Assembly (NCBI RefSeq): GCF_913060805.1
Contig: NZ_CAJXTC010000005.1
Coordinates: 1-64,000 of the forward strand
DNA length: 64,000 nt
Origin: an uncultured Draconibacterium sp.
GTDB lineage: Bacteria; Bacteroidota; Bacteroidia; Bacteroidales; Prolixibacteraceae
Reading direction: 5' to 3'
Shown piece after piece: positions 25,954 to 43,603 of this stretch (positions are counted from its first letter, which is position 1; each line of letters begins with the position of its first letter). The notes under the pieces are model-generated. The model was not told the origin of the DNA. It searched no databases and worked only from the letters and a program-made list of their open reading frames with translations. Both the position numbers and the translations under genes were made by a program.

Positions 25954-25955
25954 TT

Positions 25956-26693
25956 TTACTTTAAATTCTTTGCCAACTCAGGCACAGTTTCTTTAAGTGC
26001 TTCGGTAGCCAACTGAGCTACTTTGTGCGCCCCTTCCTGCGATAGATGCGTATCGTCTTTTCGTGGTTCCGGATGACGCTCGTTTGTAATATCGGTCCAC
26101 ACATACATTTGTTTCGACGCTTCATCGCCAAGCGAATTTACCCATTCTTCGGTAATTTTTTGCAAATCGATAAGTGGCACATCCAACAAATCAGCTACCC
26201 GGCGGGTAGCCACCGGATAATCACCATGTGTGTCGGTTAACTTTCCATCTTCACCAAACTTTCGTCGTACTATGGATGTAAAAAGTACAGGGATAGCTCC
26301 TTTTTCACGCGATTCATTAACAAACTTACTAAGGTTTTCAGAGTAAGTTCCAAACGGAGTGGTGTAGCGTGTTGAGTCGTATGCTTTCTGGTCGTTATGG
26401 CCAAACTGGATAAAAACATAATCGCCGGCCTGCAAGCTATCGAGCACCGTTTGCCATCTTCCTTCGTCGATAAAACTTTTTGAACTTCTGCCGTTTTTTG
26501 CATGGTTTTTCACCGCAACGTTCGGGTTGAAATACTCATCGAGCACCATGCACCAACCGGTTTCAGGAAAAGCGTCAGCCTCCTTGTTTGCCATTGTTGA
26601 ATCACCCACACAATAAATGCTGAATTCCTTTGGTTCTTGACAGGAACTGAGGACGATCAGAATAAGAGTGCAGAAATAGAAAAGTCGTTTCAT
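25956..26693 (-). CDS. Rhamnogalacturonan acetylesterase (CE12, SGNH hydrolase)
   Basis: Removes acetyl groups from rhamnogalacturonan or other pectin. The 245-residue lipoprotein has Cys18 ('LSSCQE'). The SGNH blocks are present: 'GDST' with nucleophile Ser32, 'NHAKNGRSSKSF', 'GHND', and the C-terminal 'DDTHLSQEGA' that supplies the catalytic Asp and His. The spacing of 11 bases from GH28 and 2 bases to CE8 shows it is inside the enzyme operon. The family assignment is firm. The exact acetyl position hydrolysed cannot be told from sequence. Confidence 0.92.
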   Translation of the reverse strand: MKRLFYFCTLILIVLSSCQEPKEFSIYCVGDSTMANKEADAFPETGWCMVLDEYFNPNVAVKNHAKNGRSSKSFIDEGRWQTVLDSLQAGDYVFIQFGHNDQKAYDSTRYTTPFGTYSENLSKFVNESREKGAIPVLFTSIVRRKFGEDGKLTDTHGDYPVATRRVADLLDVPLIDLQKITEEWVNSLGDEASKQMYVWTDITNERHPEPRKDDTHLSQEGAHKVAQLATEALKETVPELAKNLK

Positions 26694-26704
26694 GGTTGAA
26701 TCTA

Positions 26705-28396
26705 CTAAAATTTAACCGCTTCTGCAGGCACTTCTGATCCGATAGTTGTGTATTGTTTTACATTAGTTTCCGAATTTGAAATGCTTATATTTTTACACTT
26801 CGAACCATTAATTTTTATGGCGTCAGCAGCTTTAAAATCATAAGCAAGGCCATTCACATCAACATCTTTACTATTGAAAATCAACATGGCAACATCTTTG
26901 TCGGTTATCAATTTTGTATCGTTGATTTTCACACCTTTGGCATCAATGATCTGGAATCCGTTATCGGCTTTCAGATAGAGATTGTTCAGCTCAATATTTT
27001 CGAGTGGCATTTCCGGAAGTCCCTGAAGAAAAACCGCCTGCTGTGCGCCGTTAATCGTAACATTCGAGATTTTGATATTCTTGAATTGTGGTGTTTCTTC
27101 GGTAACAGGAAGAAGTTCTGTCGATGTTTCCATCCCGCCTTCTTCCATCATTTCCGAAATTGATTGTCCGCCGTAATACAGGTTAAACGAAATGGCATTT
27201 GTCGGGATGTTGGTCATATAAACATCAGAGATAAAAATGTTCTCCACAACGCCGCCACGGCCGCGGGTGCTTTTAAAACGCAGGCCCACATCGGTACCCA
27301 TAAAAGTGCAGTTTGAAACGTGCATGTTGCGCACTCCGCCCGACATTTCACTTCCGACTGTAACACCACCGTGACCATGATAAACAATGTTGTCTTTAAT
27401 GATGAGGTTTTCGCACGGAATTCCGTAACGACGACCGTCTTCGTTTTTCCCGGATTTGATACAAATGGCATCGTCGCCCACATCGAAATTGCAGTTTTGA
27501 ACCAGTACGTTTTTGCATGATTCAATATCGATTCCATCGCCATTTTGCGAATACCATGGATTACGTACAGTTAAATTTTTCACGGTCAGATGCTCAACAC
27601 GTAAAGGGTGAATATTCCATGCCGGCGAATTCTGAAATACCGGGCCATCGAACATGATTCGTTTACTATTTTGAATACTCACAAACACCGGGCGCAGGTA
27701 GTCGCGTATGGTTTCAAATTCTTCCTTGGTTTTCAGGTCGTCGCGCACATTCTGATCGCCACTGCCTTCAATTCCCTTTTTGTACTGCTCCGACGGATAC
27801 CAAACATCGCCTTTTTCGCTTACAATACCTCCCGATTTTACAAGGTCTTTCCAATCGTTTTCATTAAGCTTCGATTTTTTTACAGCGCGCCAGGCACCGC
27901 CGTTTCCATCCCAAACACCATTTCCGGTAAAAGCAACGTTTTCAATATTTCTTCCGTGAATTGGCGAAAGACAACGATAAGTATCCAAACCTTCGAAATT
28001 GGTTGCAATAACCGGATAAAGATCTTTGTTGGTAGAGAAAAGAATTACGGCGCCTTGCTCGGCGTGCAATTCCAGGTTGCTTTTTAACTGAATGGGACCG
28101 GTTAACCATATGCCCGGAGGAATGGTTACTTTGCCTCCACCTTTTTCGGTAACCGCGTTTATGGCCGCCTCAAAAGCTTCGGTATTCATTTCAATTCCGC
28201 CACTTATTGCACCAAAATCGGTTATCGACACCGCATAGTCAGGAATTTGCGGTTCCTGAATTACCGGCATTTCAAATTCAATTGTTTCGTACAAGCTATT
28301 TGCGATTTTGGGAGGTGCGCTTTTTTCGGCACATCCCACCGTGAAAACAGCAGCGGCAAGTAATAGATTAGAGATCTTTTTAACTATCATTTTCAA
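26705..28396 (-). CDS. GH28 polygalacturonase family enzyme, lipoprotein
   Basis: Inverting hydrolase of galacturonic-acid linkages in homogalacturonan or rhamnogalacturonan. The lipoprotein signal has Cys22 ('TVGCAEK'). The right-handed beta-helix carries the GH28 catalytic set: 'NGDGIDIES' (Asp287, Asp290), 'VGDDAICIKSG' (Asp308, Asp309), 'HGHGG' (His342) and 'RFKSTRGRGG'. At 563 residues it is longer than simple fungal enzymes. The extra length includes the region with 'KSGGIVSEKGDVWYPSEQ', common in Bacteroidota exo-type members. Its ATG overlaps the stop of the CE8 gene by 4 bases (ATGA), so translation is probably coupled. Confidence 0.94.
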   Translation of the reverse strand: MKMIVKKISNLLLAAAVFTVGCAEKSAPPKIANSLYETIEFEMPVIQEPQIPDYAVSITDFGAISGGIEMNTEAFEAAINAVTEKGGGKVTIPPGIWLTGPIQLKSNLELHAEQGAVILFSTNKDLYPVIATNFEGLDTYRCLSPIHGRNIENVAFTGNGVWDGNGGAWRAVKKSKLNENDWKDLVKSGGIVSEKGDVWYPSEQYKKGIEGSGDQNVRDDLKTKEEFETIRDYLRPVFVSIQNSKRIMFDGPVFQNSPAWNIHPLRVEHLTVKNLTVRNPWYSQNGDGIDIESCKNVLVQNCNFDVGDDAICIKSGKNEDGRRYGIPCENLIIKDNIVYHGHGGVTVGSEMSGGVRNMHVSNCTFMGTDVGLRFKSTRGRGGVVENIFISDVYMTNIPTNAISFNLYYGGQSISEMMEEGGMETSTELLPVTEETPQFKNIKISNVTINGAQQAVFLQGLPEMPLENIELNNLYLKADNGFQIIDAKGVKINDTKLITDKDVAMLIFNSKDVDVNGLAYDFKAADAIKINGSKCKNISISNSETNVKQYTTIGSEVPAEAVKF

Positions 28397-29370
28397 AGTT
28401 TTTTAATTTCTTCCAGGTTGGAGAACAGCTCTTCTGTCCAGTCTCCAAAAATCTTTTCAACGGAGTATTCTTGTGCTTCTGCATCGCTTAACTGATGCGA
28501 CCAGGTAACTCTGTTTTTAGTATCGGCACCTTCGCCGGTATTGTTATATTCAGCAAAATAGGCTGTCTTTTCCTTCTCCGGATCGCGCCAGTTGTGCCAA
28601 CCTTCGGGTTTTATGTGTTTGCCCAGTTTGCAGCCGATGAAAACTGATTTGCCATAAGGACGCCACGGACGACCGAGATAAAACGAGTTTTCAGGAGCGT
28701 CCCCGGTGATGTTGCAATTCAGAAAAACAAAACCATATTTTGAATTTTCCTCAGTGGATGGGGCCGTGATGTATCCGGCTGTTTTGCAAAAAATGGTGCA
28801 GTCTTCGAAAACTGCTGTCGACCAACCGAAAATAAAATCAACAGTACCTTCTATGTAACAGTTTTTATAGTACTGCCGGCTGTTTTTGCCACGCGGATAA
28901 AGTGTATCCTGGTTGCCCAGAAAACGGCAATTCTCGAAAGCCACTTTGTCACTCTCAATACGAACGGCAACAGCTTGCCCAACAGGGCCGGCCGAGTTCT
29001 GAAAAGTTATGTTTTTAGCAATAAAACCTTCTCCAAAAATGTAAAACGATGTTGAACCTGTTGTTCCCATTTCTTCGCCAAAGCGGTTCTTTTTACTGGC
29101 AAAATTATCGTAAGTAAGGATGGTGTTTTCAAGGTCTTCGCCAATAAACGTTACCAGTGTTTTGCTAGCCGGTAATACCAGCTTTTCTTTGTAAATGCCT
29201 TGTTTTATGAAAATGGTTGTGCGGTTTTTCCTGAAATCAGGAACCGCATCAATGGCCTCCTGCACAGTGGTGAAATCGCCGCTGCCGTCTTTTGCTACCA
29301 CAAAATCCAAGGCACTTGCCGAGGCAGCTGCCAGCAATAATACAAATGATATGAAGAGTTTGCTTTTCAT
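28393..29370 (-). CDS. Pectin methylesterase (CE8), second copy
   Basis: Second CE8 of the operon, 325 residues, with a cleavable signal peptide (~1-20). The motifs are intact: 'GQAVAV', Asp155 in 'NQDTLYPRG', nucleophile Asp178 in 'TVDFIFGWS' and Arg234 in 'LGRPWRPYG'. It differs from the first copy around the substrate cleft ('GWSTAVFE' against 'GSATVVFQ'), so the two are old paralogues rather than a recent duplication. It lies 3 bases after GH43 and overlaps GH28 by 4 bases. Confidence 0.95.
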   Translation of the reverse strand: MKSKLFISFVLLLAAASASALDFVVAKDGSGDFTTVQEAIDAVPDFRKNRTTIFIKQGIYKEKLVLPASKTLVTFIGEDLENTILTYDNFASKKNRFGEEMGTTGSTSFYIFGEGFIAKNITFQNSAGPVGQAVAVRIESDKVAFENCRFLGNQDTLYPRGKNSRQYYKNCYIEGTVDFIFGWSTAVFEDCTIFCKTAGYITAPSTEENSKYGFVFLNCNITGDAPENSFYLGRPWRPYGKSVFIGCKLGKHIKPEGWHNWRDPEKEKTAYFAEYNNTGEGADTKNRVTWSHQLSDAEAQEYSVEKIFGDWTEELFSNLEEIKKL

Positions 29371-29373
29371 TCC

Positions 29374-30996
29374 TTATTTATCAATCCTAAACCAATCAAT
29401 ATCAACCGTGCCCGAGTCGTTTGTAATTCCTTCGCGCAAGGCAAAATAACCTATCTTTGCGCCGATCCAACGGCCCGGTTTGGCTGTAAATTCTTCGCCA
29501 ACGGTTTTAAATTTTTTCCCATTGCTGCTAAAACTAAAAGTGCAAATCGCACCCTTTTTTACTTCTATCCTGAAGTAGATTTCATTACTGTTAAAAGTTT
29601 CTGAATGCAATTCAATTTCCTTTCCGCCGGTGCGTGCATTTTCGCATTTCGCCACGTGCAGCTGAAGTTGCCCGTCTATTTGTTTTAATGAAATGTACTG
29701 GTAGTCTTCGCCCATTACCACAAAACCGGTTTCTTCGTCATCGGTGCGGGCATTGAATGTTATTTTGGTAGTGGCTGTAAATTCTTCGGCAGGGAATTTT
29801 TGTAACAGAAGGTTCGGAACCATCCAAAGTACTTCTTCTCCCTCAGGGCGAACAATACAATTCAGGCGATAAAAGCCAAGGTTGCCTGACGGAAATCCAT
29901 ACGAAATGTGTTTGTTGGCTTGCCATTGCCACTGAATTCCCAGCTGGTTTCCATTGAACTCGTCGCTTTCCGGTGGAGTTGAAACAGGGTAGGTAGCGCC
30001 AACATCCGGTTTTTTGTAGGTGAGCACCGGCTCGCCAATTCCGTCACCGTCTTCGTCAACACCAATCACCGGCCAATCGTTGTGCCAGGTCATCGGGTTA
30101 AGGTGTACAACCCGTCCGTAAGCTTCTTTATCTTGAAAATGGATGAACCAGTTTTCTCCTGTTTTTGTATCCACCCAAGCTCCCTGGTGAGGCCCGTTTA
30201 TATCGGTGTCGCCTTGCGCCATTACAATTTTTATTTCGTAGGGACCGTACACATTTTTCGAGCGGAGCACGGTTTGCCAGCCCGTTGAAACGCCACCTGC
30301 CGGAGCAAAAATGTAGTAATAACCGTTGGCTTTGTAAAATTTTGGTCCTTCAATGGTTGGGTGATCATCGTGTCCGTCGAAAACCATTACTTCATCGCCG
30401 ATAACCGCTGTTCCTTCGCTGTTCATTTCCTGAACCAGAAGCACCGACTTTATACGTGCGCGACTGCCGGCAAAAGCATGCGTTAAATAAACTTTTCCGT
30501 CATCATCCCAAAGTGGCGACGGATCGATCAAACCTTTTCCGCCTTTTACCAAAATTGGTTCCGACCACGGACCTTCGGCCTGTTTGGCTTTAATTTGATA
30601 TATGCCAAAATCAGGATCGGGGTAATAAATGTAAAACTCGTTATTATGGTAGCGGATGCAAGGCGCCCAAACGCCGTTTCCGTGTTGCGGAATGCTGAAC
30701 ACATCTTCAGGAACCTGTGTGGGTAGCGCATAAGTTATAAGTTGCCAGTTAACCAGATCTTTTGAGTGAAGAATCGGTAAGCCGGGAACACAATTAAATG
30801 AAGAAGCCGTCATGTAATAATCGTCGCCAACGCGAACCACATCCGGGTCGGAGTAATCGGCATGGATGATCGGATTTTTATAAGTGCCATCGCCGTTATC
30901 GGCTACCCAAACTTTTGAAATCCCGGTTTGTGCGCTGCTAAAAAGCGACATGCCGCAAAGGATTATCAGGATTATTATTGTTGGTTTTAGGTTCAT
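29374..30996 (-). CDS. GH43 enzyme with C-terminal concanavalin-like domain
   Basis: Inverting alpha-arabinofuranosidase or beta-xylosidase type enzyme, here probably trimming pectic arabinan. The 540-residue protein has a signal peptide (~1-22). The five-bladed propeller spans ~40-330, with catalytic base Asp50 in 'DYSDPDVV', general acid Glu216 in 'TIEGPKFY' and 'GLIDPSPLWDDDG' for the modulator. A beta-sandwich domain (~350-540) of the kind found at the C-terminus of beta-xylosidases follows. It starts 1 base after the PL1 stop and is followed by CE8 after 3 bases. The catalytic residues are complete, unlike the other GH43 in the window. Confidence 0.92.
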   Translation of the reverse strand: MNLKPTIIILIILCGMSLFSSAQTGISKVWVADNGDGTYKNPIIHADYSDPDVVRVGDDYYMTASSFNCVPGLPILHSKDLVNWQLITYALPTQVPEDVFSIPQHGNGVWAPCIRYHNNEFYIYYPDPDFGIYQIKAKQAEGPWSEPILVKGGKGLIDPSPLWDDDGKVYLTHAFAGSRARIKSVLLVQEMNSEGTAVIGDEVMVFDGHDDHPTIEGPKFYKANGYYYIFAPAGGVSTGWQTVLRSKNVYGPYEIKIVMAQGDTDINGPHQGAWVDTKTGENWFIHFQDKEAYGRVVHLNPMTWHNDWPVIGVDEDGDGIGEPVLTYKKPDVGATYPVSTPPESDEFNGNQLGIQWQWQANKHISYGFPSGNLGFYRLNCIVRPEGEEVLWMVPNLLLQKFPAEEFTATTKITFNARTDDEETGFVVMGEDYQYISLKQIDGQLQLHVAKCENARTGGKEIELHSETFNSNEIYFRIEVKKGAICTFSFSSNGKKFKTVGEEFTAKPGRWIGAKIGYFALREGITNDSGTVDIDWFRIDK

Positions 30997-30997
30997 G

Positions 30998-32377
30998 TTA
31001 TTTCTTTTGGGCTATTATCGAGTTCAGGTAAACTTCAATGTTGGTATATTTTTTATCGAGCTTGTAATCGTTATTATCCGCTTTTTCAGGATTTAGCCCG
31101 TTTTGTTTTTCCCACTTATCGGGCATGCCGTCATTATCGGCATCGGGTGGAGGAGGAGTTGAGCGTAAAATTGGCCAGCCTCCCACATCTGTCTGGCTGT
31201 CGATGATTCCTTTTCCGCCATCTCTGAATTGTTTCCCGACAGTTTCTTTTCCGGTCGTAGCTTCGTGAATTATTCGTTTGTCAACGGCATCGCGCTGATA
31301 ACTGGCGCCAGCATCTTGCAATACCTTTTTGTATGCTTCTTCTGCTTTGTCGGTTTTTATAGCAGTGTGTTCAACCGGACTTGTGAGCCGCGATCGATCG
31401 ATCATTTCCTGTGAAAGGTTTTTGACCTGGACACCGCCAGCCCAGTTATCTTTTGAGATTTCTTTGTTCCCTTCAATTACGTTTCCGTCGAGGTAAAACC
31501 AACCTGCCCGGAGTGTATCAGTATTTCTGCTTTCGTTGTAAAAATCTTGTGTGAGGTTTAAAATACGATCGCGGACATCTTTTTTGGTTGCCGGACCGGG
31601 TTTATAATAATTGTTCACCAGGTTGTAATGGCCTTCTTCGCCACCATAAACGCTGTTGTTTCCCCAGTTGTAAATTACATTGTTTCTGAAATCGGCTTTC
31701 TCAAAATCCGGATCGTTGGTGTATCTCGATCCCTGCAGCCGCGGATTCCGGCTTACATGATCAGATATCAGGTTGTGATGAAAACTTGCATTGCTTCCGC
31801 CCCAGATTCCGCCGTAACCGTGCGCTCCTTTGTGATGGAACGACAGGTTAAAACTTTCGCTGATAATACACCATTGCAGTGTAAAATTTTCGTTGTCGTA
31901 AAACGAGGCCACTTCATCGTCGGCCCAGCTAAAACTGCAATGGTCTATTATAATATTTTTGTTTCGCATTCCGGTAATTGCATCCATTTCCTCGTGCGAC
32001 TTGTCGCCGGGGCGCACACGCAGATAGCGAATAATTACATTGTCGGCGTCAACACGTACACCGTAATTTTTCAGGCAAATTCCATCTCCCGGAGCGGTTT
32101 GCCCGGCAATGGTAAGATCGCCGTTTTTTATGTGAATGGTCTTCTCTAATTCAATGGTTCCTGACACTCTGAAAATAATGGTACGCGGGCCTTCCGCCTC
32201 AATAGCTTTTCTAAAACTTCCGTTGCCTTTGTTGTTCAGGTTGTCGACAAAAATAACTTTGCCACCGCGACCTCCGGTTGTGTATTTGCCACCACCTTCA
32301 GCACCCGGAAAAGCGATTTGCTGTCCTAAAACCGTTTGGAAAAGGAGAATCAGAATTAAGCTTAACTGTACCTTCAT
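30998..32377 (-). CDS. PL1-family pectate lyase without sorting domain
   Basis: First gene of the enzyme block. The 459-residue pectate lyase has a standard signal peptide (~1-18). The beta-helix motifs match the T9SS-tagged paralogue: 'FPGAEGGGKYTTGGRGG', 'IIDHCSFSWADDE' and 'HGYGGIWGGSNASFHHN'. It ends right after the acidic linker ('DADNDGMPDKWE') and 'TNIEVYLNSII', exactly where the paralogue continues into its T9SS domain. It is therefore probably periplasmic and acts on imported oligomers, while the paralogue acts outside. This split of location is inference. Confidence 0.9.
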   Translation of the reverse strand: MKVQLSLILILLFQTVLGQQIAFPGAEGGGKYTTGGRGGKVIFVDNLNNKGNGSFRKAIEAEGPRTIIFRVSGTIELEKTIHIKNGDLTIAGQTAPGDGICLKNYGVRVDADNVIIRYLRVRPGDKSHEEMDAITGMRNKNIIIDHCSFSWADDEVASFYDNENFTLQWCIISESFNLSFHHKGAHGYGGIWGGSNASFHHNLISDHVSRNPRLQGSRYTNDPDFEKADFRNNVIYNWGNNSVYGGEEGHYNLVNNYYKPGPATKKDVRDRILNLTQDFYNESRNTDTLRAGWFYLDGNVIEGNKEISKDNWAGGVQVKNLSQEMIDRSRLTSPVEHTAIKTDKAEEAYKKVLQDAGASYQRDAVDKRIIHEATTGKETVGKQFRDGGKGIIDSQTDVGGWPILRSTPPPPDADNDGMPDKWEKQNGLNPEKADNNDYKLDKKYTNIEVYLNSIIAQKK

Positions 32378-32393
32378 TTTTAGAGTAATAACA

Positions 32394-32424
32394 GAATCCC
32401 CGGGAGTGTGGATCCCGGAGATTC
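32394..32424 (-). terminator. Intercistronic hairpin between surface protein and PL1 genes
   Basis: GAATCCCCGGGA (32394-32405) pairs with TCCCGGAGATTC (32413-32424) with one mismatch. On the minus strand a moderately T-rich stretch follows. It lies between the SusCD/surface-protein block and the enzyme block, where it could act as a partial terminator or mRNA-end stabiliser. Confidence 0.55.
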
Positions 32425-32488
32425 TTTTTAACTAACTAATAGACTAACTATTCACGAACTTAAATATATCGTTTCAAATTTCGTCGAA

Positions 32489-34072
32489 TTATTTCCAGCG
32501 TGGGTCGCCCGCGTCAACAGCATCAAAAGCGAATGAGAAATCGCCATTGTCAGGATCTTCCCACAAACCGTCGTAAGTTACACCCAGCGAAGTCAACTGA
32601 TCAACAATTGAATAATCGGAGTTTACAAAGTCGGTTGTTGCATAAGAATTTGTAATGGTCACCATTACGTCTTCAGGAGCACGAATACCAGTAATCGAAG
32701 GCTCGTCGCCATAAGAAGTTGTACCAAAAATACAGTTGGTAACTTCAACGCCACTGGTAATTACCGCGTCTCTGATGTCCATTAAATAACGGCCCGAGCT
32801 AAACGGCGTTTTATTGAATGTACAGTTCTCAACGATAATACTTTCGCATGACACAGGCTCGTCGTAACGAATGAAATGGCATTTCAAACTATCGATAGTT
32901 GAGTTGGTAATTTTTACAACAGTTGCGTTTGTATTGCCTTCGGTTGCGCAGAAAACACCATAACTACCACTGCTTTTACCCAGGTTGTGAATGATACAGT
33001 CGTCAACAAGGAATTCGCCAATAGTTTGATCAGAACCACCGCGTAAACGCATGATTTGGCGGCCCATGTAAAACATTTTACAGCCGATGAATTTAACAGC
33101 GCCAATGTTACAGGCTTCGCTTTCCATATCGAATACACCACGAATTTGTCCCTGCGAAGCATCCATGTTGGTGTAACCGCTCATAAACAGGTTTTCGAAA
33201 ACGATTTCTTCGGTTGGCAGAATGCTTGCTCCAATATAGAACATGCGGTCGCCATCGGTAGCATAAATTACCGGAAGCTCTCCGTCCAGTCCTTTAATCT
33301 TAATGGCTCTTTCCAACATCATATCACCTTCGAAACCAAACTCGGCACCGGCAGCCAGAATAAGCACATCGCCCGATTCGGCACCGCTGATTGCTGCAGC
33401 CAGATCTTCGCCGGCATCAACAAATACATCGCCTTCCATTACGTAATCCTGTACTCCGCGGCCTTTGTTGCCATTCAGAATAGTAATTACATATTCGCCA
33501 TTTGGCAGATCGGTTATCGACTTCATTCCGGCAGCCTGCTCTTCAGCAGTAATTTCGGCAGTAATTTCTCCCTCTGTTGAAACAAAGCTCAGAGAAGTAA
33601 CTGCTTTTCCCGGAGTCCAGCTTACATCGATGCTGTTCAGCCCTGTCATGGCCACATCATACCTGTTAAAAATATTCTCGGGCAATGATTTAAATGCCAG
33701 CTCTGCCCATTTTGAGTCGGCAATACTGTCGTTCATCCCTTTTACACGTGCCGAGTATTGCGAGTTACCGGCCGGCAGTTCGTAAACGTAAGGCAGTTCG
33801 TCGGGACCTACCGTTGCGGTATGAATGATATTGGCGAACGATAAGCTGTCGTCGCTGATTTCCAGTTCGTAAGATTGTACCTTTTTGTTGAATCCCCAAC
33901 TTAAGGATACTACAGTTTGGTTGCTGATTTTAGCTTCCAGCTCCAGGGGCGTAAATACCCTGTCGAATTCCAGTTCTTCAATAACCGGAGTTATATCATC
34001 TTCGCAGGCGTTTATTGCGAATAAAGCAACAATGCCCAATAAGATTCCAATATTTCTAAATATTTTTTTCAT
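32489..34072 (-). CDS. DUF5123/DUF4957-type surface glycan-binding lipoprotein
   Basis: Likely SusE/F-position surface binding protein for pectin. The 527-residue lipoprotein (Cys23, 'INACEDD') has fibronectin III-like domains (~35-205), then a pectin-lyase-like parallel beta-helix (~210-510) with repeating strand motifs ('ESIIVENCTFNKTP', 'SGVEVTNCIFGTT'). No lyase or hydrolase catalytic set is apparent, which fits binding rather than cleavage. It lies 32 bases after susD and is followed by a hairpin before the enzymes. The architecture is typical of pectin loci of Bacteroidota; direct binding is inference. Confidence 0.8.
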   Translation of the reverse strand: MKKIFRNIGILLGIVALFAINACEDDITPVIEELEFDRVFTPLELEAKISNQTVVSLSWGFNKKVQSYELEISDDSLSFANIIHTATVGPDELPYVYELPAGNSQYSARVKGMNDSIADSKWAELAFKSLPENIFNRYDVAMTGLNSIDVSWTPGKAVTSLSFVSTEGEITAEITAEEQAAGMKSITDLPNGEYVITILNGNKGRGVQDYVMEGDVFVDAGEDLAAAISGAESGDVLILAAGAEFGFEGDMMLERAIKIKGLDGELPVIYATDGDRMFYIGASILPTEEIVFENLFMSGYTNMDASQGQIRGVFDMESEACNIGAVKFIGCKMFYMGRQIMRLRGGSDQTIGEFLVDDCIIHNLGKSSGSYGVFCATEGNTNATVVKITNSTIDSLKCHFIRYDEPVSCESIIVENCTFNKTPFSSGRYLMDIRDAVITSGVEVTNCIFGTTSYGDEPSITGIRAPEDVMVTITNSYATTDFVNSDYSIVDQLTSLGVTYDGLWEDPDNGDFSFAFDAVDAGDPRWK

Positions 34073-34104: not shown

Positions 34105-35880
34105 TTAGTTAACCGGGTCGTTGTTCAACATCCCGTTACTTGCATCAATAAACACCTGCCAAATTGGCCAGTACTGGTTTTGGTCAGGATCGTTGGTATA
34201 GAGCGAATTGATCTTATCATCTTCAATTTGATCCGGAAGTGCCCATTTATATGCATAATCATACTCTGTCAGCATATTTTCAGTTTCACCTCTCTCCAGT
34301 CCATAAATGTCCAAAGTTTCATTATCCGATAAATAGCTGAAATAGATTGCCGGAGGAACATCAGCATATTCGCCGGTGCGGTTACGCAGGTCATCCATTT
34401 TTTGTTTTGTTTCGTCCATTTTCGATTTCAACAAATTCCAACGGATAAGTGCCTGTTTGCGTTCCATTTCGCCACATAACTCAAAACCATGTTCATCAAC
34501 AATGGCGTTAAACATTGCTTCTTTTGAAGTAAGAGCATCAACATAAGCATCAACTTTTGTCGACCAGTCGGCTTCATCAAAAGCTCTTTGGCGAATCATT
34601 TTTAAGTAAGGAGCTGCTGCCGAAGGACCGTTCAATTCATTTTCAATTTCAGCGGCCATTAAAATTACCTCGGCATAACGCATGTATATTTTGTTAACAC
34701 CATCGTCGTTAGTTGATGTTACGTAACGGGTCATCCACTCGTAACGCCATTTTCCGAAATACCAGGTGTCGATTCCCATCAACTCCTGTTGAGCAGGATT
34801 TGATTTACTCCAGCTGTAAGGAACACAAGTTACATCGCGACGGGTGTCTTTTGCATCGAAATCGTAAAATACATTCGGAGTAGGACCGTAGCTACCTCCG
34901 CGTGGCTGACCGGTATATTGGTCGGCTGCCTGGTGACGCACGGCGTAAGTAAATAAATGGCGTCCGCGACCTTCGGCAAATGGTACTTCCCAAAGCGATT
35001 CGCTGCCTGCAGTAATTACCTCTTCGCAGTTTTTCCGCCAAACGGTTTCGAAAGAAGGCTCGAGTGATGCCGTTCCGCTGTTTATAATGTCTTTACATTC
35101 TTGTAATGCAATTGGGTACAAAGTGCTAACTGAAAGTTCAGGATCAGAACTTCTGCTGATAGAACTTCCGCGTTGTGAATAACCGGCTGCAGCCATGCAT
35201 AAACGTGCACGCAAACCTTTTACAAATGCTTTGTTCACCTGCTCCGTGGTGGCAGTTGCTTCGGTTTCGCCCGGCCACGCTACCAAGGTTGCAGCTTCTT
35301 CCAAATCGGCAATTACATGCTTGTAAATCTCGTCTCTGTTCGATTTTGGTAAATAAATCGTTTCAGACGAAATCGGCTCGAAACGGGCTACAATATCGCC
35401 GTGCGACTTTAACAGGTCGGCGTAGTAGATCGATCTCAAAGTGATCGCTTCACCCAAAAGTTGACCCATTGCTGTTCCCGGCTCAGGATTTCCGTATGTA
35501 CGCAATCCTCTGATACAAATGTTGGCACGTTCGATTCCGCGGTACAACATTGCCCAGTATACGTTATCACGGTTCATATCCGAGTTGGTTGGAGAATTTA
35601 TGTAACGCGACAAATCGCCACGGCCATTTTCAGAGGTTGAGTTGTTCCACTCAATATCGGTGTTCGAACCGTAGTGGGTAAGAAATCGACCACGATACGA
35701 GTTGGTTTGTCCCATCGGTTCTTTAATTCCATCAATGGCTCCCTGCGCCAGCTCAACGTTCGAGAAGATCAACGATTCATCCATAGTTGATTGCGTAGGA
35801 GCATCAAGGTATTCATCGCAAGAGGTGAAAACCACCGCGAAAAATAATATCGTTATATATGCTATTTTATTCATTTTCAT
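34105..35880 (-). CDS. SusD/RagB-family glycan-binding lipoprotein (pectin locus)
   Basis: Outer-membrane lipoprotein that caps the SusC barrel and captures pectin oligosaccharides. It has 591 residues with a lipoprotein signal at Cys21 ('FTSCDEY'), followed by the classic N-terminal 'YLDAPTQSTMDES'. The alpha-helical TPR core follows, then a C-terminal RagB domain with 'IYMRYAEVILMAAEIENE', the usual SusD signature. The C-terminal end has 'QYWPIWQVFID'. It starts 11 bases after susC. The substrate is assigned from the downstream CE8, GH28 and PL1 genes. Confidence 0.95.
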   Translation of the reverse strand: MKMNKIAYITILFFAVVFTSCDEYLDAPTQSTMDESLIFSNVELAQGAIDGIKEPMGQTNSYRGRFLTHYGSNTDIEWNNSTSENGRGDLSRYINSPTNSDMNRDNVYWAMLYRGIERANICIRGLRTYGNPEPGTAMGQLLGEAITLRSIYYADLLKSHGDIVARFEPISSETIYLPKSNRDEIYKHVIADLEEAATLVAWPGETEATATTEQVNKAFVKGLRARLCMAAAGYSQRGSSISRSSDPELSVSTLYPIALQECKDIINSGTASLEPSFETVWRKNCEEVITAGSESLWEVPFAEGRGRHLFTYAVRHQAADQYTGQPRGGSYGPTPNVFYDFDAKDTRRDVTCVPYSWSKSNPAQQELMGIDTWYFGKWRYEWMTRYVTSTNDDGVNKIYMRYAEVILMAAEIENELNGPSAAAPYLKMIRQRAFDEADWSTKVDAYVDALTSKEAMFNAIVDEHGFELCGEMERKQALIRWNLLKSKMDETKQKMDDLRNRTGEYADVPPAIYFSYLSDNETLDIYGLERGETENMLTEYDYAYKWALPDQIEDDKINSLYTNDPDQNQYWPIWQVFIDASNGMLNNDPVN

Positions 35881-35891
35881 CGTAGTTTCAA

Positions 35892-38800
35892 TTAAAAGTT
35901 AATGTTTAAACCAAAAATGAATTGTCTGCTTTTTGGATAAGGCGAGTAGTCAACACCGGGTGTAAGTGGTGTTTTTCGTCGAGTTGAAACCTCAGGATCA
36001 AATCCAGTATAATTGGTAAGAACAAATACATTGTTGGCTGTTGCGTACAACCTTAAGTTTTCAATATGTACTTTTCGTGTAAGTACTTTCGGAACTGTGT
36101 ATCCTAATGTTAGCGTATTCAGGCGCAGGAACGAACCATCTTCAACAGCCCAGTCGCTTAGTACGTAACGTGACATGTATGGCGACCACATTGTGGTATT
36201 GGCGTTCATAGCTTCTAATGTTGCCGGATCGTTTACCAGCTGTCCGCTTTCGTCGATATTGGTCCAGCGTTTTCCGTCGGCCATAATATCGATCATATTT
36301 CGGTAAGGATATCTACTTGTTGATGTGTACTCAATTTTGTTGGCGTTGTATACATCGTTTCCGACACTCCAGCTAAAAATGGCTGAAAGATCGAAGTCGT
36401 AAACACGAGCCGACAAGTTAAAACCACCGGTTGCTTTCGGATTTACATCACCGATAATGGTGTTGTCGTCAACGGTAACTTCGCCATCGCCGGTAACATC
36501 TTTCAACTTCATCGATCCCGGACGAACTGTTCCAATAATACTTGTGTTATCAGCAACTCCATCTCTTAAGATCCACTCATCAGCATCAGCGTCGTAACCT
36601 TCAAAATCTGATACTTCGTATCTTCCGTCACTTAGGTAACCGCGAATCTGTCCAACAGGGCTTCCCTGTTCAATCCAGTAATCGGTACCAATTTCGGTAG
36701 AAGCCCAGCTTGATGCTACGCCAAAGTCTTCCATAATTCCGAGCGACTTAATTTTGTTCTTGTTCATTCCGAAATTAAAGCCGAAGTTAAGTCCGAAGTT
36801 TTGTTTATCGAGAGCGACCCAGTTTACAGAGGCCTCGATACCTTTGTTTTCGGTTTCACCCATGTTTCTGAATTGCGAGCTGTAACCCGTTCCCGATACC
36901 GGGAAGTCGATCAACAGATCGGAAGTGGTATTCAAATAGGCTTCGAATGTTCCGCTCAAACGGCTGTTAAACAAACCAAAATCGAGACCAACATTTCGGG
37001 TAACTGTCGTTTCCCAAATCAAATCAGGATTCGCCATGCGCGATGAAACAGCCCAGTAACCCGATACATCGTTGATATAAGTCGTATTACTTGAGCTGAA
37101 TTCCTGTACCATTTGGCCCGAAACGATATTGTTGTTACCGGCGGTACCGTAACTCACTCTTAATTTTAAGTTGTTAAGTGTTGAAGAAATGCCTTCCATA
37201 AAACTTTCTTCCGAGATGCGCCATGCAACAGCTGCTGACGGGAAATATCCCCAGCGGTTACCTTCGGCAAATTTGCTCGAACCATCGGCCCTGAATGTTG
37301 CAGAAACGAGGTACTTTCCTTTGTAGTCGTAATTGGCACGACCAAAGAACGACAGCAATTTATTGTCGGCACTGATCACATTATCGATACTCAACGGAAC
37401 CCCCTGCGTTGTTAAACGGAATACTTCGCTTGAAGTAAAGAATGAAGGGTAGCCCTGAACGATATCGGTAAGTGTGCTTGATTTTGCATAAAGAATTTCC
37501 TGACCGGCCAATAACTTCACACTGTGGTCTTCGTTTTTAATAATATTTTTAAAGTCGAAATTCAGCGTGTTTGTATTTCTGAACGTTTCCTGCTTGCGTT
37601 TTTCCATTTCGGCAGCCGGCAAACCCTGGTAATCGGCATCGGTGTAGTTTTTTACGTAGTAAGTACTTGGTCCGTAAAAACGATCACGGTCGCGGTCGTA
37701 GGTTTGGTAACCCACTTCTGTTTTAAAGGTTAAACCGTCGGTAATATCCCACTGGAAACTGGCTCCAACATTCAATCGGGTTCTTCTTTGTTCCTGATCG
37801 TTATCGGCAACAGCAGTTAACGGATTGATCATATAACTTGAAACTTCTTCATCGGCATAATCTTCCAGTCCGTTCAAAGGAATAGGAGAGTAGATCATGG
37901 AGTGTTTTACACGCGAATCGGTTGGTGTAGCCGTAGTTTGCTCAATGGCACCACCACCACCAATTTTGGTTTGCGAGTAACGCATCGAGTAAGAAAGTTT
38001 GATATTATCTGCAGGATTGTGATCTAATTTAAAGTTCACGTTATCACGTTTGTAATCCGATCCGAGCATGATTTCGCGGTTTTTAACACCGGCATAACTG
38101 AAATTGTAGGCAAATTTTTCCGATCCTCCACGAACACTTAAATCGTGGTTGAAAACGCGTCCGGTGCGGCCGTAAACCTGTTCCATCCAGTCGTTACCAA
38201 CCTGTCCGGCATACAGATCAATATCCTGGTATTTACCAAAATATTTCTCGTACGAATCAAGGTTGTCTTCAGTGTTTCTTAAGTTAGCCAGTTCGTATTG
38301 CCAGTGTACAAAGTCCTCAACATCGAGTGTGTTAAGTGTGTTTGCAATGTTTTTAAAACCACTGTACACGTTGTAACTCACAGAAACTTTTCCTGTTTTT
38401 CCGCTTTTAGTGGTAATAATAATTACACCGTTTGCACCACGAGCTCCGTAAATTGCTGTCGACGATGCATCTTTCAGCACGTCGATCGATTGAATTTCGG
38501 AGGCAGGAATATCAGAGATTGTGCTCACCGGAAATCCATCAACAATATACATTGGCGAGTTGTCCTGGGTGATTGAACCACCACCACGAACACGGATTTT
38601 AATCTCGGCATCAGGCGATCCTTCCGTTGCCATTACCTGCACACCGGCCATTTGTCCGGCCATTGCTTCGGCAGCCGAAGTAACCGGAATGGCTTCCAGC
38701 GCTTCACCACTAACTGATGATACCGATCCGGTAATGTCTCTTTTCTTTACGGTACCGTAACCAATTGCCACAACTTCTTCCAGCTCTGTCGCCTCCATTT

Positions 38801-39128
38801 CGAGCGCAACATTTATTTCGGTTTGGTTATTTACAGGAACTTCCTGTATTGTATATCCGATAAAAGAAAACTGCAATGTGGCGGTTGGGCTTACATTTAG
38901 TTCATAGGAACCATCCGGCTGGGTAATTGTACCGTTGGTAGTTCCTTTTACAACAACATTAACTCCGGGAAGCCCTTCTCCGGAATCCTGGTCGGTTACG
39001 TTCCCTTTCACAGCAATGGTTTGCGACCATGCGGTAAAGGAAAGAACTGTTTGAAACATAATCAAAGCAGCTACAGCAAGAAACTTACTTACATGCAGGC
39101 TCCGACTTTTTCGTTTAAGATTTACCAT
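35892..39128 (-). CDS. SusC/RagA TonB-dependent receptor (pectin locus)
   Basis: Outer-membrane importer for large oligosaccharides, powered by TonB. The 1078-residue protein has a signal peptide (~1-36), then a carboxypeptidase-regulatory-like domain (~38-120). The plug follows (~125-240), with 'EVVAIGYGTVKKRDITGSV' (a variant TonB-box region) and 'SIDVLKDASSTAIYGARGANGVIIITTK', the SusC hallmark. The 22-strand barrel ends in Phe ('FGLNINF'). It has no STN domain, consistent with HTCS rather than anti-sigma control. Its neighbours are susD 11 bases downstream and a small membrane-peptide gene 62 bases upstream. Confidence 0.97.
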   Translation of the reverse strand: MVNLKRKSRSLHVSKFLAVAALIMFQTVLSFTAWSQTIAVKGNVTDQDSGEGLPGVNVVVKGTTNGTITQPDGSYELNVSPTATLQFSFIGYTIQEVPVNNQTEINVALEMEATELEEVVAIGYGTVKKRDITGSVSSVSGEALEAIPVTSAAEAMAGQMAGVQVMATEGSPDAEIKIRVRGGGSITQDNSPMYIVDGFPVSTISDIPASEIQSIDVLKDASSTAIYGARGANGVIIITTKSGKTGKVSVSYNVYSGFKNIANTLNTLDVEDFVHWQYELANLRNTEDNLDSYEKYFGKYQDIDLYAGQVGNDWMEQVYGRTGRVFNHDLSVRGGSEKFAYNFSYAGVKNREIMLGSDYKRDNVNFKLDHNPADNIKLSYSMRYSQTKIGGGGAIEQTTATPTDSRVKHSMIYSPIPLNGLEDYADEEVSSYMINPLTAVADNDQEQRRTRLNVGASFQWDITDGLTFKTEVGYQTYDRDRDRFYGPSTYYVKNYTDADYQGLPAAEMEKRKQETFRNTNTLNFDFKNIIKNEDHSVKLLAGQEILYAKSSTLTDIVQGYPSFFTSSEVFRLTTQGVPLSIDNVISADNKLLSFFGRANYDYKGKYLVSATFRADGSSKFAEGNRWGYFPSAAVAWRISEESFMEGISSTLNNLKLRVSYGTAGNNNIVSGQMVQEFSSSNTTYINDVSGYWAVSSRMANPDLIWETTVTRNVGLDFGLFNSRLSGTFEAYLNTTSDLLIDFPVSGTGYSSQFRNMGETENKGIEASVNWVALDKQNFGLNFGFNFGMNKNKIKSLGIMEDFGVASSWASTEIGTDYWIEQGSPVGQIRGYLSDGRYEVSDFEGYDADADEWILRDGVADNTSIIGTVRPGSMKLKDVTGDGEVTVDDNTIIGDVNPKATGGFNLSARVYDFDLSAIFSWSVGNDVYNANKIEYTSTSRYPYRNMIDIMADGKRWTNIDESGQLVNDPATLEAMNANTTMWSPYMSRYVLSDWAVEDGSFLRLNTLTLGYTVPKVLTRKVHIENLRLYATANNVFVLTNYTGFDPEVSTRRKTPLTPGVDYSPYPKSRQFIFGLNINF

Positions 39129-39190
39129 ACTTCACATTTTAGGTTATTATAGAATTATTATTTGGTTTCAGCTTTACGAATTATCCGGCT

Positions 39191-39298
39191 TATTTAAAAA
39201 TGAGATTGATCAGGACAATGATCAGAATGATAAGGACGATCGTAGCGATGATGATCATCCCGTCAGTTTTTTTCAAGTTTCGTTTGATCTTGCTCATT
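39191..39298 (-). CDS. Small single-pass membrane peptide (35 residues) ahead of susC
   Basis: A short open frame, ATG at 39298 to TAA at 39191. The N-terminus is basic ('MSKIKRNLKKTDGM'), followed by about 19 consecutive hydrophobic residues, mostly Ile, Leu and Val. This is the profile of a single transmembrane anchor with a cytoplasmic positive tail. A promoter candidate (39323-39351) would start transcription about 18 bases upstream, making it the first gene of the pectin susC operon. It lies 62 bases before susC and 186 bases after the end of the HTCS gene. No family was recognised. A low-complexity hydrophobic frame can arise by chance, so its reality depends on conservation. Confidence 0.5.
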
Positions 39299-39322: not shown

Positions 39323-39351
39323 GCAAGATAGTGGAGGTGCCGCGAAACAAA
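39323..39351 (-). promoter_or_regulatory. Candidate promoter of the pectin susC operon
   Basis: On the minus strand TTTG (39351-39348), a 17-base spacer, then TATCTTGC (39330-39323), close to TAnnTTTG. It sits between a threefold TTTCCC/GGG motif and the small membrane-peptide gene. Transcripts would read through the peptide into susC. Confidence 0.4.
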
Positions 39352-39360: not shown

Positions 39361-39417
39361 TTTCCCAATATGAAATGGGCGCTTTCCCGATAAGGGCTTA
39401 ATTTCCCAAATGGCGGG
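39361..39417. promoter_or_regulatory. Three iterated TTTCCC...GGG motifs upstream of the pectin operon
   Basis: TTTCCC begins at 39361, 39383 and 39402, each followed within 4-10 bases by a GGG. The unit spacing is 22 and 19 bases, about two helix turns. The array lies just upstream of the candidate promoter, where an activator such as the adjacent HTCS would bind. Assignment as an operator is inference. Confidence 0.35.
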
Positions 39418-39484: not shown

Positions 39485-42400
39485 TTATGATTCGTTTAGC
39501 TTACTTGTTTCAATTTTCTTATTCGAGAGGTATTCCGAGGCACTCATACCAAATTCGCGCTTAAAACATTTTCGGAAATGCGACAGATCTTTGAAGCCAA
39601 CCTGATAGGCAACTTCCGAAATATTCAGCTTTTGCTGGTCGAGTAATTGGGTAGCACGTTTTAAGCGGATATGGCGAATGAATTCTTTTACGGTCATATT
39701 GGTAAGTGCATTTAATTTGCGGTACAATTGCATGCGGCTCACCCCAACTTTTAGTGCAAAATTCTCGATATCCAGTTCGCTGTCGGCAATGTTTTCTTCT
39801 ATTACATCAACCACTCGTTTCAGGAACTTTTCATCCGGAGAAGCCAGCACAACATTAGTAGGTTCGAGCACCATGGTTGAGGTATATTTTTCTTTCAGCG
39901 AATCGCGGATAGAAAGCATATTTTCCACTTTGGCCTGCAATACCGACAGGTCGAACGGTTTTGTAATATAATCGTCGGCACCTTTGGCCAAACCTCTTAA
40001 TTCGTGGTCTTTCGAGTGCATGGCAGTAAGTAAAAGCACCGGAATATGCGAAGTACGCTCGTCGTTTTTTATCCGTTTACACAATTCGTAACCATCGGAT
40101 TCGGGCATAATAATATCGCTGATAATAATATCGGGAACCACTTCAAGAGCTTTCTCCCAGCCTTCTTTTCCATTTACGGCCAGGTGAATCTGGTAGAAGT
40201 TCATAAAATGTGAACTGATAAACTGTCGAACATCAGCATTGTCTTCCACAATCAACATTATTTTCGAGTTGTCGTCAGCCGGTTGAACCGTTGGCGTTTC
40301 CGGTGCCGGATGAATTTCCTGTACGCTGGTTGTTACTTCTTGTGCTTTTGTTTGGCTGCTTTCGGTTCCTTCGTTATACGGAATACGAATGGTAAAGCGC
40401 GTTCCTTTTCCTTCCTTACTGGTGACAAAAATTTCGCCTTTGTGCAGTTTCACCAGGTCTTTAACAAGGGCAAGCCCAATTCCGGCACCTGTTTTTTCAT
40501 CGGTTTCATCCGACTGGAAAAAGCGCATAAAAATACGATCGATATTTTTCCGCGAAATTCCTTTCCCGGTGTCTTTAATATTGATCTCAATGTATTGTTT
40601 CTCTTCGCTTTCGTCGCTAAAATCCTCGTTCTCCGAGTCGAAAACCAGCGAGAGGTTTACCGTAACCGATCCTTCAGGTTCGGTATATTTAAAAGCGTTG
40701 GTAAGTAAGTTGTTTATTATTTTTTCGATCTTGTCCGGATCGAAGGACACAAATAGCCTTTTTTTCAGCGTGTTAAAAGTAAGTTTGATGTCTTTCTCAA
40801 TCGCATAGTGGTTAAACGATTCCACAATGTTGCGAACAAAACTAACGATGTCGGCTTCGGTAAGATTGAGTTTTAAATTGCCCGATTGTAATTTCCTGAA
40901 ATCCAGCAGCTGACTGATTAGCCGGTCGAGGTTTTGTGCATTTCGCTGCATTAACTGCAGGTTCTCTTTGGTTGATCCGTCAACTGTTTTTGACTGGATC
41001 AATTTGTTGAGCGGCCCTAAAATAAGCGTTAACGGTGTTCTGATTTCGTGTGAGATATTGGTGAAGAACTTCAGCTTCATCATATCCATCTCGTGTAGTT
41101 TTTTTGCATTCGAGCGTTCAATAATCAGCTGCGATTTGATTTTTTCACGGTTGATAAAGAACTGGATTATAGTATAGATGAGTGAAATGATCAACAGGAT
41201 GATCAGCCCCAAAAACCAGTTGGTTTTCCAAAATGGTGGCAAAATCGAAATGGCCAGTTGCAGCTCGTTACTTTCGCGTTCCTGCCCCGGAATTACACGT
41301 TTTATGCGAAGTGTATAATCGCCGGGATTCAGGTTGGTGTAGGTGGCCGTGCGGTTTTTACTCGGTTCGATCCAGTCGGTGTTAAAACCTTCCAGTTTGT
41401 AGGTGTACAAGTTATTTTCGCTGTTTACGTAATTCAGCGCGGCAAACTCAAGGGTAAAAACATTTTGTTTATGGTTAAAAGTCAGGTGTTTTGTTTCGGT
41501 GATACTTTGTTTCAATATCGACTTTTTGTCTTCATCAATCGGCACTGATTTATTAAACACTTTCAAATCGGTAAAAACCAGCGGAACATCCGTGTCTTCG
41601 GCATTTATCTCGTTCGGATTAAAAACATTAAAACCGGAAACGGTTCCGAAAAAAAGTGCTCCGTCGTCGGCTTTTAAAGCAGCACCGTAGCAAAACTGGT
41701 TGTTTCCCAGTCCGTCGTTGCTGGTGTAATTATAAAATACTTCAGTTCTCGGATTAAACTTCGATAATCCGTTTAAAGTACTTATCCACAGGTTTTTCAG
41801 GTCGTCTTCTAAAATGCAAAGTGCCTGATTGTTGGCCAGTCCTTCTTCTTCTCCGTAATATTTTATGGCGCCGTTTTCGGCTGAATATTTGGCCAGTCCT
41901 TTGTCGTTTGTTGCAATCCAAATCTGGTTTTGCGAATCTTCAAACATGTATCGCGTGCGCTCGAACCAGCGGTTTATTTTATTGGTGCGCTGATTGAAAA
42001 CGATGAGTTCATCTTCACTTCCCATCCAAAGATTTCCCTGCGAATCGTTATCGATCCACATAATTTGCTCATTTCCGTTCAGCTGCGGATAGTGAATAAA
42101 CAGCTTTGTTTTTTTGTCGAAGCGATCAATCCCTTTCGAGGAGGCGATCCAGATTTGCTCGTTCTCGTCGATACAAATATCCCACACGCGGTTGTCCGAT
42201 AAACTTCCGGGTACATCGGCCTGGTTATGATAGTTTTTAATTTTTCCCGTTTCGAGGTCAATCACATCAATTCCACCCAAAAAAGTTCCCACCCAAAGAT
42301 TTCCTTTATTGTCGGGAACCAGTGCCTTAACACAGTTTTGAGCAATGGTATAACCCGGTTTACCATCGGTGGTCAGGTATTCGTAATTCCCGGTATTCGG

Positions 42401-43603
42401 ATTGTAAATGTTAATTCCGCCATCTTCGGTGCCGCACCAAAGCCGTTCGTTTTTGTCCATCCAGAAGGTATAAATGGCGCTGCTGTTCAGGTAGCGATTG
42501 TCGTCGGGCTGGGCAGTAAAACTGTGGAAAACCTGTTTACTTTTAGCCAGCAGATTCAGTCCGCCGCGTGTACCAATCCATGTTTCTCCTTTGTTATCGT
42601 GAAAAATACTCAGCACCGAGTTATTGGAAAGACTGCGCGGTTCCTGAATGCTGTGTCGGTAAAAACCTTTTACACCGCTTTCTTTCGAATAGAGAAACAG
42701 CCCGCCGCGCGTGCCGATCCAGTAATCGCCAAACACGCCTTTTGAAATGGCTTTAACGGTTTCAGTGCGTTCGGCAGCCGGTCTGAATTTTATTGGATGG
42801 TAGCTTTTGGTGCTCGTGTTAACCACAAACAAACCGATGGAATAAGTCCCGATCCAAAGATCGCCGTCGTCATCCAAAAAAAGTTCCCAGATTTCTTTGT
42901 TTTGTGCTGATCCGAAAGGAAGTTCGAAACGTTCGAGTGTATTATTCTGTTCGTTGTAAATATATACGCCATTGTTCGATCCGATCCATAATTTTCCCTG
43001 GTTATCGTAGGCCAGATTCCGGATAAAAACATCCTCGATTCCCGCAGTTCCTTCTTTTTTTATCGGATTAAGCGGAGTGATCATTCCGGTGCTGTCCATT
43101 TTTAGCACATTAAAATCGCTCGCGAGCCAAAACGAACCGTCCTGATTCTCAATAATGTCGTTCACCGAAAAATCTTTTTCCCCATAAACCGGATCGTTTT
43201 TAAAAGGCTGCGAGAAAACTTCTTTTTCACGGTCGAAAATATTTAGTCCACCGTTTTCAGTACCTACCAGCAGGTTGCCTTTATGGTCTTCTTTTATAAC
43301 CCTGATGAGATGTCCGCTCAGGGAACACGAGTCTTCCGAATCGGGAAGAAAATTGGTAAAATCATAGCCGTTAAACCGGCTTAGACCCTGGCTGGTTCCT
43401 ACCCAAATCCATCCTTTGTGGTCTTGATAAACACATTGTATCTGGTTATTGGGCAGCCCATCTTCAAGCGTAAAAATATCGAAACTTAGCTCGGCCTGTG
43501 CCTGCGTTTTTCCTGCAGTGAAAATGAAAATCAGGAACAGAAAAAGAGTAAGTTTTTGATTTAAAGCGTAATTCATTTTATCGATCAGTTTTGCAGCGAA
43601 CAT
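39485..43603 (-). CDS. Hybrid two-component system regulator (HTCS), pectin side
   Basis: A one-protein sensor kinase and transcription factor. It senses an oligosaccharide in the periplasm and activates the adjacent locus. In order: signal peptide (an inner start at 43576 also fits it), Reg_prop beta-propeller repeats (~35-690; many 'LWIGT' blades), a Y_Y_Y domain (~710-790), a membrane helix (~795-820), HisKA with the phospho-His near residue 851 ('ISHEIRTPL'), HATPase (~950-1070), a receiver with phospho-Asp near 1163 ('IISDIIMP'), and an AraC-type helix-turn-helix (~1275-1370). All signalling residues appear intact. It lies directly upstream of the pectin operon, transcribed the same way. 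Confidence 0.95.
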   Translation of the reverse strand: MFAAKLIDKMNYALNQKLTLFLFLIFIFTAGKTQAQAELSFDIFTLEDGLPNNQIQCVYQDHKGWIWVGTSQGLSRFNGYDFTNFLPDSEDSCSLSGHLIRVIKEDHKGNLLVGTENGGLNIFDREKEVFSQPFKNDPVYGEKDFSVNDIIENQDGSFWLASDFNVLKMDSTGMITPLNPIKKEGTAGIEDVFIRNLAYDNQGKLWIGSNNGVYIYNEQNNTLERFELPFGSAQNKEIWELFLDDDGDLWIGTYSIGLFVVNTSTKSYHPIKFRPAAERTETVKAISKGVFGDYWIGTRGGLFLYSKESGVKGFYRHSIQEPRSLSNNSVLSIFHDNKGETWIGTRGGLNLLAKSKQVFHSFTAQPDDNRYLNSSAIYTFWMDKNERLWCGTEDGGINIYNPNTGNYEYLTTDGKPGYTIAQNCVKALVPDNKGNLWVGTFLGGIDVIDLETGKIKNYHNQADVPGSLSDNRVWDICIDENEQIWIASSKGIDRFDKKTKLFIHYPQLNGNEQIMWIDNDSQGNLWMGSEDELIVFNQRTNKINRWFERTRYMFEDSQNQIWIATNDKGLAKYSAENGAIKYYGEEEGLANNQALCILEDDLKNLWISTLNGLSKFNPRTEVFYNYTSNDGLGNNQFCYGAALKADDGALFFGTVSGFNVFNPNEINAEDTDVPLVFTDLKVFNKSVPIDEDKKSILKQSITETKHLTFNHKQNVFTLEFAALNYVNSENNLYTYKLEGFNTDWIEPSKNRTATYTNLNPGDYTLRIKRVIPGQERESNELQLAISILPPFWKTNWFLGLIILLIISLIYTIIQFFINREKIKSQLIIERSNAKKLHEMDMMKLKFFTNISHEIRTPLTLILGPLNKLIQSKTVDGSTKENLQLMQRNAQNLDRLISQLLDFRKLQSGNLKLNLTEADIVSFVRNIVESFNHYAIEKDIKLTFNTLKKRLFVSFDPDKIEKIINNLLTNAFKYTEPEGSVTVNLSLVFDSENEDFSDESEEKQYIEINIKDTGKGISRKNIDRIFMRFFQSDETDEKTGAGIGLALVKDLVKLHKGEIFVTSKEGKGTRFTIRIPYNEGTESSQTKAQEVTTSVQEIHPAPETPTVQPADDNSKIMLIVEDNADVRQFISSHFMNFYQIHLAVNGKEGWEKALEVVPDIIISDIIMPESDGYELCKRIKNDERTSHIPVLLLTAMHSKDHELRGLAKGADDYITKPFDLSVLQAKVENMLSIRDSLKEKYTSTMVLEPTNVVLASPDEKFLKRVVDVIEENIADSELDIENFALKVGVSRMQLYRKLNALTNMTVKEFIRHIRLKRATQLLDQQKLNISEVAYQVGFKDLSHFRKCFKREFGMSASEYLSNKKIETSKLNES

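Follow-up and report, generated by a model that had tools for sequence, protein, structure and literature searches.

The 35-residue reading frame upstream of the pectin operon in the 64,000-nucleotide stretch of Draconibacterium DNA analyzed here (the window) is, as judged from its conservation and codon statistics, a real, protein-coding gene. Comparisons among genomes show that this conserved frame is the first one after a putative operator and promoter, that it is tied to one clade of HTCS regulators and that it is kept at the head of another operon. HTCSs are major glycan regulators in Bacteroidota and carry sensor and regulator in one chain (PMC11253607). We propose, giving the idea an even chance, that the peptide is an HTCS-controlled inner-membrane microprotein that acts in trans on the HTCS, much as MgrB acts on PhoQ. 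A microprotein that is conserved and linked to a single clade of HTCSs would bring in a further control element, one that is not part of the HTCS chain itself.

The frame, its locus and its homologues

The open reading frame (35 codons, minus strand) extends from 39297 to 39190, stop included, begins with ATG and ends with TAA, and its translation is MSKIKRNLKKTDGMIIIATIVLIILIIVLINLIFK. The preliminary description had correctly recognized a 35-residue frame with a basic N-terminus and an Ile/Leu/Val helix, but its coordinates (39191-39298) were shifted by one base. Five basic residues and one acidic residue are found among the 12 N-terminal residues of the window peptide, and they are followed by approximately 21 residues, mostly Ile, Leu or Val. 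We annotate 39190..39297 (minus strand) as the gene of a 35-aa membrane microprotein on the basis of the ORF, its homologues and purifying selection; its location in the membrane is predicted from sequence, and its topology was assigned by the positive-inside rule alone.

Downstream on the same strand, susC (35892..39128, matched by family model TIGR04056) begins 61 nt after the peptide stop, and is followed by susD (34105..35880, Pfam) and by the remaining same-strand pectin run (19969..34072, Pfam), which comprises GH43, GH42, two pectinesterases, GDSL, GH28, GH43, DUF5123 and two genes without clear family. The run from the peptide gene to 19969 was assumed to be one transcript. The two pectinesterases, together with the GH28, GDSL esterase, GH43 and GH42 genes, bear out the earlier naming of this operon after pectin, and the proposal that a small membrane protein gene stands first in it has gained strong support, as the frame is conserved and its substitutions keep it open. 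Upstream lies the HTCS (39485..43603, minus strand), assigned by its Pfam propeller repeats, kinase, receiver and AraC domains, which, also in view of co-occurrence, is the likely controller and likely partner of the peptide. It has an internal hydrophobic helix near residue 799, and among 14 products of the locus that were checked, the peptide and the HTCS were the only ones with a strongly hydrophobic helix outside an N-terminal signal. Note also that a second HTCS (44467-48681, minus strand) is located beside another locus with GH31, GH5, SusD and SusC, whose susC leader (L189) is without a peptide of the window's family, and that a 152-aa frame without a Pfam match (43972-44430, minus strand) lies between the two HTCS genes.

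Clear homologues were retrieved by a protein search of 61 genomes and further ones by profile searches; the protein-search matches L008-L010 and L012 are terminal parts of frames of 109-137 aa. According to the profile search, 11 of the 37 genomes of the genus have a homologue, the genome of the window included. Members of the family are 32-36 aa long, 34 being the commonest length, and each has one hydrophobic stretch, in an arrangement of basic tail plus single helix. In an alignment of 54 distinct sequences, that of the window among them, the first 12 residues carry a mean net charge of +2.5, position 9 is K or R in 51, and I15, L22 and L29 are found in 51, 49 and 49, respectively; for these counts the first two columns of alignment A4 were removed, which makes L139 and L150 two residues shorter each. 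The start codon is GTG at three of the 37 HTCS-adjacent peptide loci.

Selection on the encoded amino acids is apparent at several levels. When the genomes G000 and G013 are compared, the peptide frame is 87% identical and ungapped, versus 62% for the stretch before it and 67% for the stretch after it, while identity is 80% in the operator and 85% at the start of susC. The pN/pS ratio was below 1 in 122 of 122 family pairs, with a median of 0.39 (45 sequences, pairs of 60-97% DNA identity; L129, L130, L139, L116 and L150, of different length or start, were left out), and it ranged from 0.14 to 0.42 in 15 of 15 pairs sharing no sequence. Over 15 independent peptide pairs, codon positions 1, 2 and 3 differ 116, 45 and 166 times. 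The preliminary description had proposed looking for the frame in close relatives and for substitutions that break it: the frame is present in the 11 genus genomes and well kept in G013, and the substitutions preserve it.

The family also has the size and build of proteins of the MgrB/SafA kind, i.e., fewer than about 65 aa and one membrane helix. When 42 rows of A4 were compared to Pfam and NCBIfam, no convincing match was found; the weak matches were of single rows to unrelated families (best E 0.003 in Pfam and 0.0075 in NCBIfam), and automatic annotation may thus skip this family. Membership in the MgrB family was rejected, since no curated sequence model convincingly matched these 42 rows, and a solved-structure match to sc-apCC-4 over 12 residues (E 2.5e-4) was not accepted as a relative. 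Outside the order, profile A2 gave no convincing short-frame match in 395 genomes of the class.

The putative operator, the promoter-like site and the leader

A triple GGGA direct repeat with spacings of 19 and 22 nt (39363..39408, minus strand) precedes the frame and is presumed to be the HTCS operator; it is the sole exact match to the pattern in its own genome, and its position is conserved before family members. The exact pattern occurs 12 times in the 37 genus genomes, nine times upstream of the peptide. At 32 of the 37 HTCS-adjacent peptide loci the start lies 57-70 nt past the best operator match. The operator score is 11-12 of 12 at 19 of these 37 loci and 6-10 at the remainder; weak scores alone say little, because the best score over 900 nt at 22 loci with a more distant HTCS also amounts to 7-10. 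The peptide loci do have the upstream direct repeat by which members of an HTCS regulon may be known, and the operator before the window peptide would be recognized by the adjacent HTCS.

Between operator and start codon lies a promoter-like site of the form TTTG-N17-TATCTTGC (39323..39351, minus strand), with TTTG at 39351-39348, a gap of 17 nt and TATCTTGC at 39330-39323. This is the stretch that had been put forward as the promoter of the operon, and it resembles the consensus TTTG / TAnnTTTG quoted in PMC7366714. Counting the window, 25 of 51 family members have a TAnnTTG-like box 10-60 nt upstream of the start codon; 200 single-base shuffles of the 60 nt preceding the start gave 5.7 such members on average and never more than 11. 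A scan with the sigma-70 consensus does not list the promoter-like site. Folding of the window leader RNA revealed nothing unusual (z -0.73, single sequence), and an Rfam scan of the window gave no match.

In five relatives (L118, L125, L128, L134 and L135), a conserved hairpin leader follows the operator in place of the peptide. It has the form CCGGGA..TTCCCGG, is preceded by a TTAGGTTnGG-like stretch, and reads CCGGGC-AAA-GCCCGG in L135, with a change on both sides. Three of the five genomes have the peptide elsewhere.

Association with the regulator and relocated copies

The peptide goes with the regulator rather than with the adjacent importer, as far as gene content tells. Within the genus, the HTCS clade (E <=1e-110) was detected in 11 of 37 genomes, and exactly the same 11, and none of the 26 others, have the peptide (E <=4.2e-4 in a short frame). 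In a sample of 295 genomes of the order, the peptide (E <=1e-5) was found in six of the seven with an HTCS of at least 54% identity (identity being scored for at most five candidates per genome) and in none of 288 others, where three weaker matches sit in long frames; in the seventh genome, G042, only 448 nt of contig are present downstream of the HTCS match. Fisher tests gave unadjusted values of 1e-9 for the genus and 8e-12 for the order sample, calculated for relatives that are not independent. An HTCS profile scan of named genomes gave 293 loci, of which the best 80 were kept, 78 with enough sequence. Among these best 80, the peptide lies downstream of the HTCS in 37 of the 78 loci: 37 among the 56 with an HTCS identity of at least 54%, and none among the 22 with 52% or below. 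One candidate, L157, was removed by eye from the HTCS-adjacent loci; it has 37 aa, begins with TTG and starts with its hydrophobic end. G003 and G036 hardly differ from each other, and the genus and order samples overlap the 80 HTCS loci. As HTCS and peptide are neighbours in most cases, simple joint inheritance may account for much of their co-occurrence. Two HTCS of the peptide-linked clade and two peptides are present in G100; the second peptide (L277) is preceded by a variant operator, GGAA/GGAA/GGCA, and by TATCTTGC, and is followed by a lipoprotein-like gene.

The importer is a less constant companion. A window-like SusC (E <=1e-250) was found in eight of the 37 genus genomes, and G003, G036 and G010 have HTCS and peptide without a close orthologue of the window SusC. 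For the own genome, 41 of 47 SusC matches had their leaders scanned (six, partial or below the cut-off, were left out, and the first ATG after a stop was taken as susC start); one of the 41 leaders, that of the susC behind the window peptide, contains a family member, which rules out a general susC feature. A loose filter found a sense frame in three of the 41 leaders and an antisense frame in none, the other two sense frames (38 and 31 aa) being less hydrophobic and unrelated to the peptide. The gene after the peptide at the 37 loci is susC in 14, GH88-like in 21, GH43 in one and a GDSL esterase in one; six of the 21 GH88-like calls were made by Pfam and the rest judged from similar starts. 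Peptide distances track those of the HTCS (partial rho 0.44, permutation p 0.0015, 16 loci) more than those of the adjacent SusC (partial rho 0.26, p 0.03, 16 loci).

Of two targets suggested in the preliminary description, the HTCS is thus the better fit in view of the co-occurrence of its clade with the peptide. The TonB/SusC machinery fits less well, as the other susC leaders are without the peptide, three genomes that have it are without a close SusC orthologue, and the next gene is not susC at 23 of 37 loci.

Copies of the gene at other operons provide a further clue. The HTCS-adjacent operon has retained a GGGA operator and susC and has lost the peptide in two genomes, G006 (Draconibacterium aestuarii, which also appears as L111 and G713) and G008. 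Apparent remnants of the lost peptide at the HTCS-adjacent site are frames that open with a start codon and run into a stop after three codons (L234) or two (L235). In both genomes the peptide and a GGGA operator head a different susC operon, on another contig in G006 (operator score 11 of 12) and 930 kb away in G008. Altogether, 20 loci of the HTCS clade are without an adjacent peptide; 12 of the genomes have it elsewhere and eight have none anywhere, which counts against the HTCS as its partner. In nine of the 12 (G713 included) the relocated peptide has no HTCS match within 1.5 kb, and the operator score there is 10-12 of 12 in six cases and 8 in three. In G728 and G730 the peptide is found next to another HTCS or at the end of a contig, the latter also being its position in G731. 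The eight genomes without the peptide include two isolates, Labilibaculum manganireducens G716 (L121, operator 12/12) and Plebeiobacterium sediminum G732, the others being metagenome bins. A peptide match (G735, E 4e-7) was obtained in one of 22 genomes picked via a more distant HTCS. Since the peptide is found at different operons, each with an operator, its product would seem to work in trans, and relocated copies make both trans action and the partner directly testable by genetics.

A proposed role as sensor-tuning microprotein and its alternatives

The peptide, tied as it is to the pectin-sensing regulator and not to the importer, is probably a small partner of the sensor. We infer that it is inserted in the inner membrane, with its basic tail in the cytoplasm, as a single-pass microprotein of 34-35 residues, and that the HTCS is its likeliest partner, because these two are the ones, among the 14 products of the locus that were checked, with a strongly hydrophobic non-signal helix and because they co-occur. 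As a member of the regulon of one HTCS clade, it would be made when the HTCS senses pectin fragments and activates the promoters that bear its operator, and it would be the first product translated from the activated operon. It would then most likely bind the HTCS in trans, at or near the membrane helix, and tune its signalling, probably as a feedback arm comparable to MgrB for PhoQ. As to the sign of this effect, our guess is that inhibition is a little more likely than activation. A correlation scan of 35-residue HTCS windows against the peptide gave no peak at the HTCS membrane helix. Extended to the phylum, the proposal would be that HTCSs of Bacteroidota can have a self-switched, detachable membrane microprotein, usually in one copy per regulon and at the head of an operator-bearing operon, which closes a feedback loop on the fused sensor; we put this forward tentatively, at somewhat short of an even chance.

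Small membrane proteins commonly bind transporters, and the peptide could act in trans on another inner-membrane protein of the pectin regulon instead, for example a sugar transporter or the TonB/ExbB/ExbD proteins that feed its SusC. This rather unlikely alternative could draw on the SusC/SusD systems of the regulon and on the weak correlation with SusC distances, but none of the 14 products examined at the window locus is an inner-membrane transporter, 40 of the 41 own-genome susC leaders do without the peptide, and G003, G036 and G010 have it without a close orthologue of the window SusC. Distinctly unlikely, in our opinion, is a leader frame acting in cis, the translation of which would tune the next gene while the peptide itself does little. 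Its position directly after operator and promoter wherever seen, the short predicted leader and the replacement by a hairpin leader in five relatives are what such a frame might look like, and short frames in long Bacteroides leaders are likened to leader peptides in PMC7366714. However, amino-acid selection extends along the whole peptide, the next gene varies from locus to locus, and in G006 and G008 the frame is not kept before the HTCS-adjacent susC, yet is present at another operon; the unremarkable folding of the one window leader speaks weakly in the same direction.

Very improbable, to our mind, is some other membrane-active peptide carried in the operon, such as a type I toxin-like or stress peptide, with which size, charge and helix are compatible: the gene is mostly single copy and tied to one regulator clade, and neither a known family (Pfam, NCBIfam) nor an Rfam entry (window) was matched. 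That the frame is untranslated and arose by chance can hardly be maintained; it is short, and looser basic-plus-hydrophobic frames exist in two other susC leaders of the genome, but the homologues in the genus, the identity of the frame above that of its flanks and the pN/pS ratios contradict it, and codon statistics rule it out.

The reading that we prefer, a microprotein tuning the HTCS, can be compared to two known systems. MgrB (47 aa) is induced by PhoQ/PhoP and makes use of its membrane helix in repressing PhoQ (PMC8534201). Like the peptide, it is small, and, as predicted for the peptide, it is single-pass with a short cytoplasmic tail and is driven by the sensor's own regulator; unlike the peptide, which has hardly any periplasmic part, it is described as having one with two conserved cysteines (PMC8534201). 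Moreover, no sequence relation to MgrB was found, and the proposed partner of the peptide combines sensor and regulator in one fused protein. SafA (65 aa), which activates PhoQ, is likewise a bitopic membrane protein that targets a sensor kinase, but it works via a periplasmic C-terminal region that has no counterpart in the peptide, and its inducer is a different two-component system (PMC8534201), contrary to the control proposed here. The peptide may work like a sensor-tuning microprotein, but it belongs to no named family.

Direct-repeat HTCS operators (PMC3878776) and short leader frames of Bacteroides (PMC7366714) are already known. The short frames before the first annotated gene in long 5′ UTRs of B. 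thetaiotaomicron, likened to leader peptides (PMC7366714), resemble the present case, from which they differ in that the peptide lies near the promoter, is under amino-acid selection and heads different operons. Among the matches listed in a literature search, which covered few subscription papers and preprints, no title or start of an abstract dealt with an HTCS or SusC operon that encodes a small membrane protein, and the term "small protein" has no occurrence in the main text of PMC3878776. In the Bacteroides HTCS regulons described there, pectin-type ones included, long-spacer direct-repeat operators similarly precede susC-type operons, while the operators of the peptide loci have three repeats, with spacings of 19 and 22 nt. 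In L120, L138, L183 and the like, the second repeat reads GGTACG and the third place is occupied by GATATG, instead of GGGAA, changes that hint at HTCSs with an altered binding preference.
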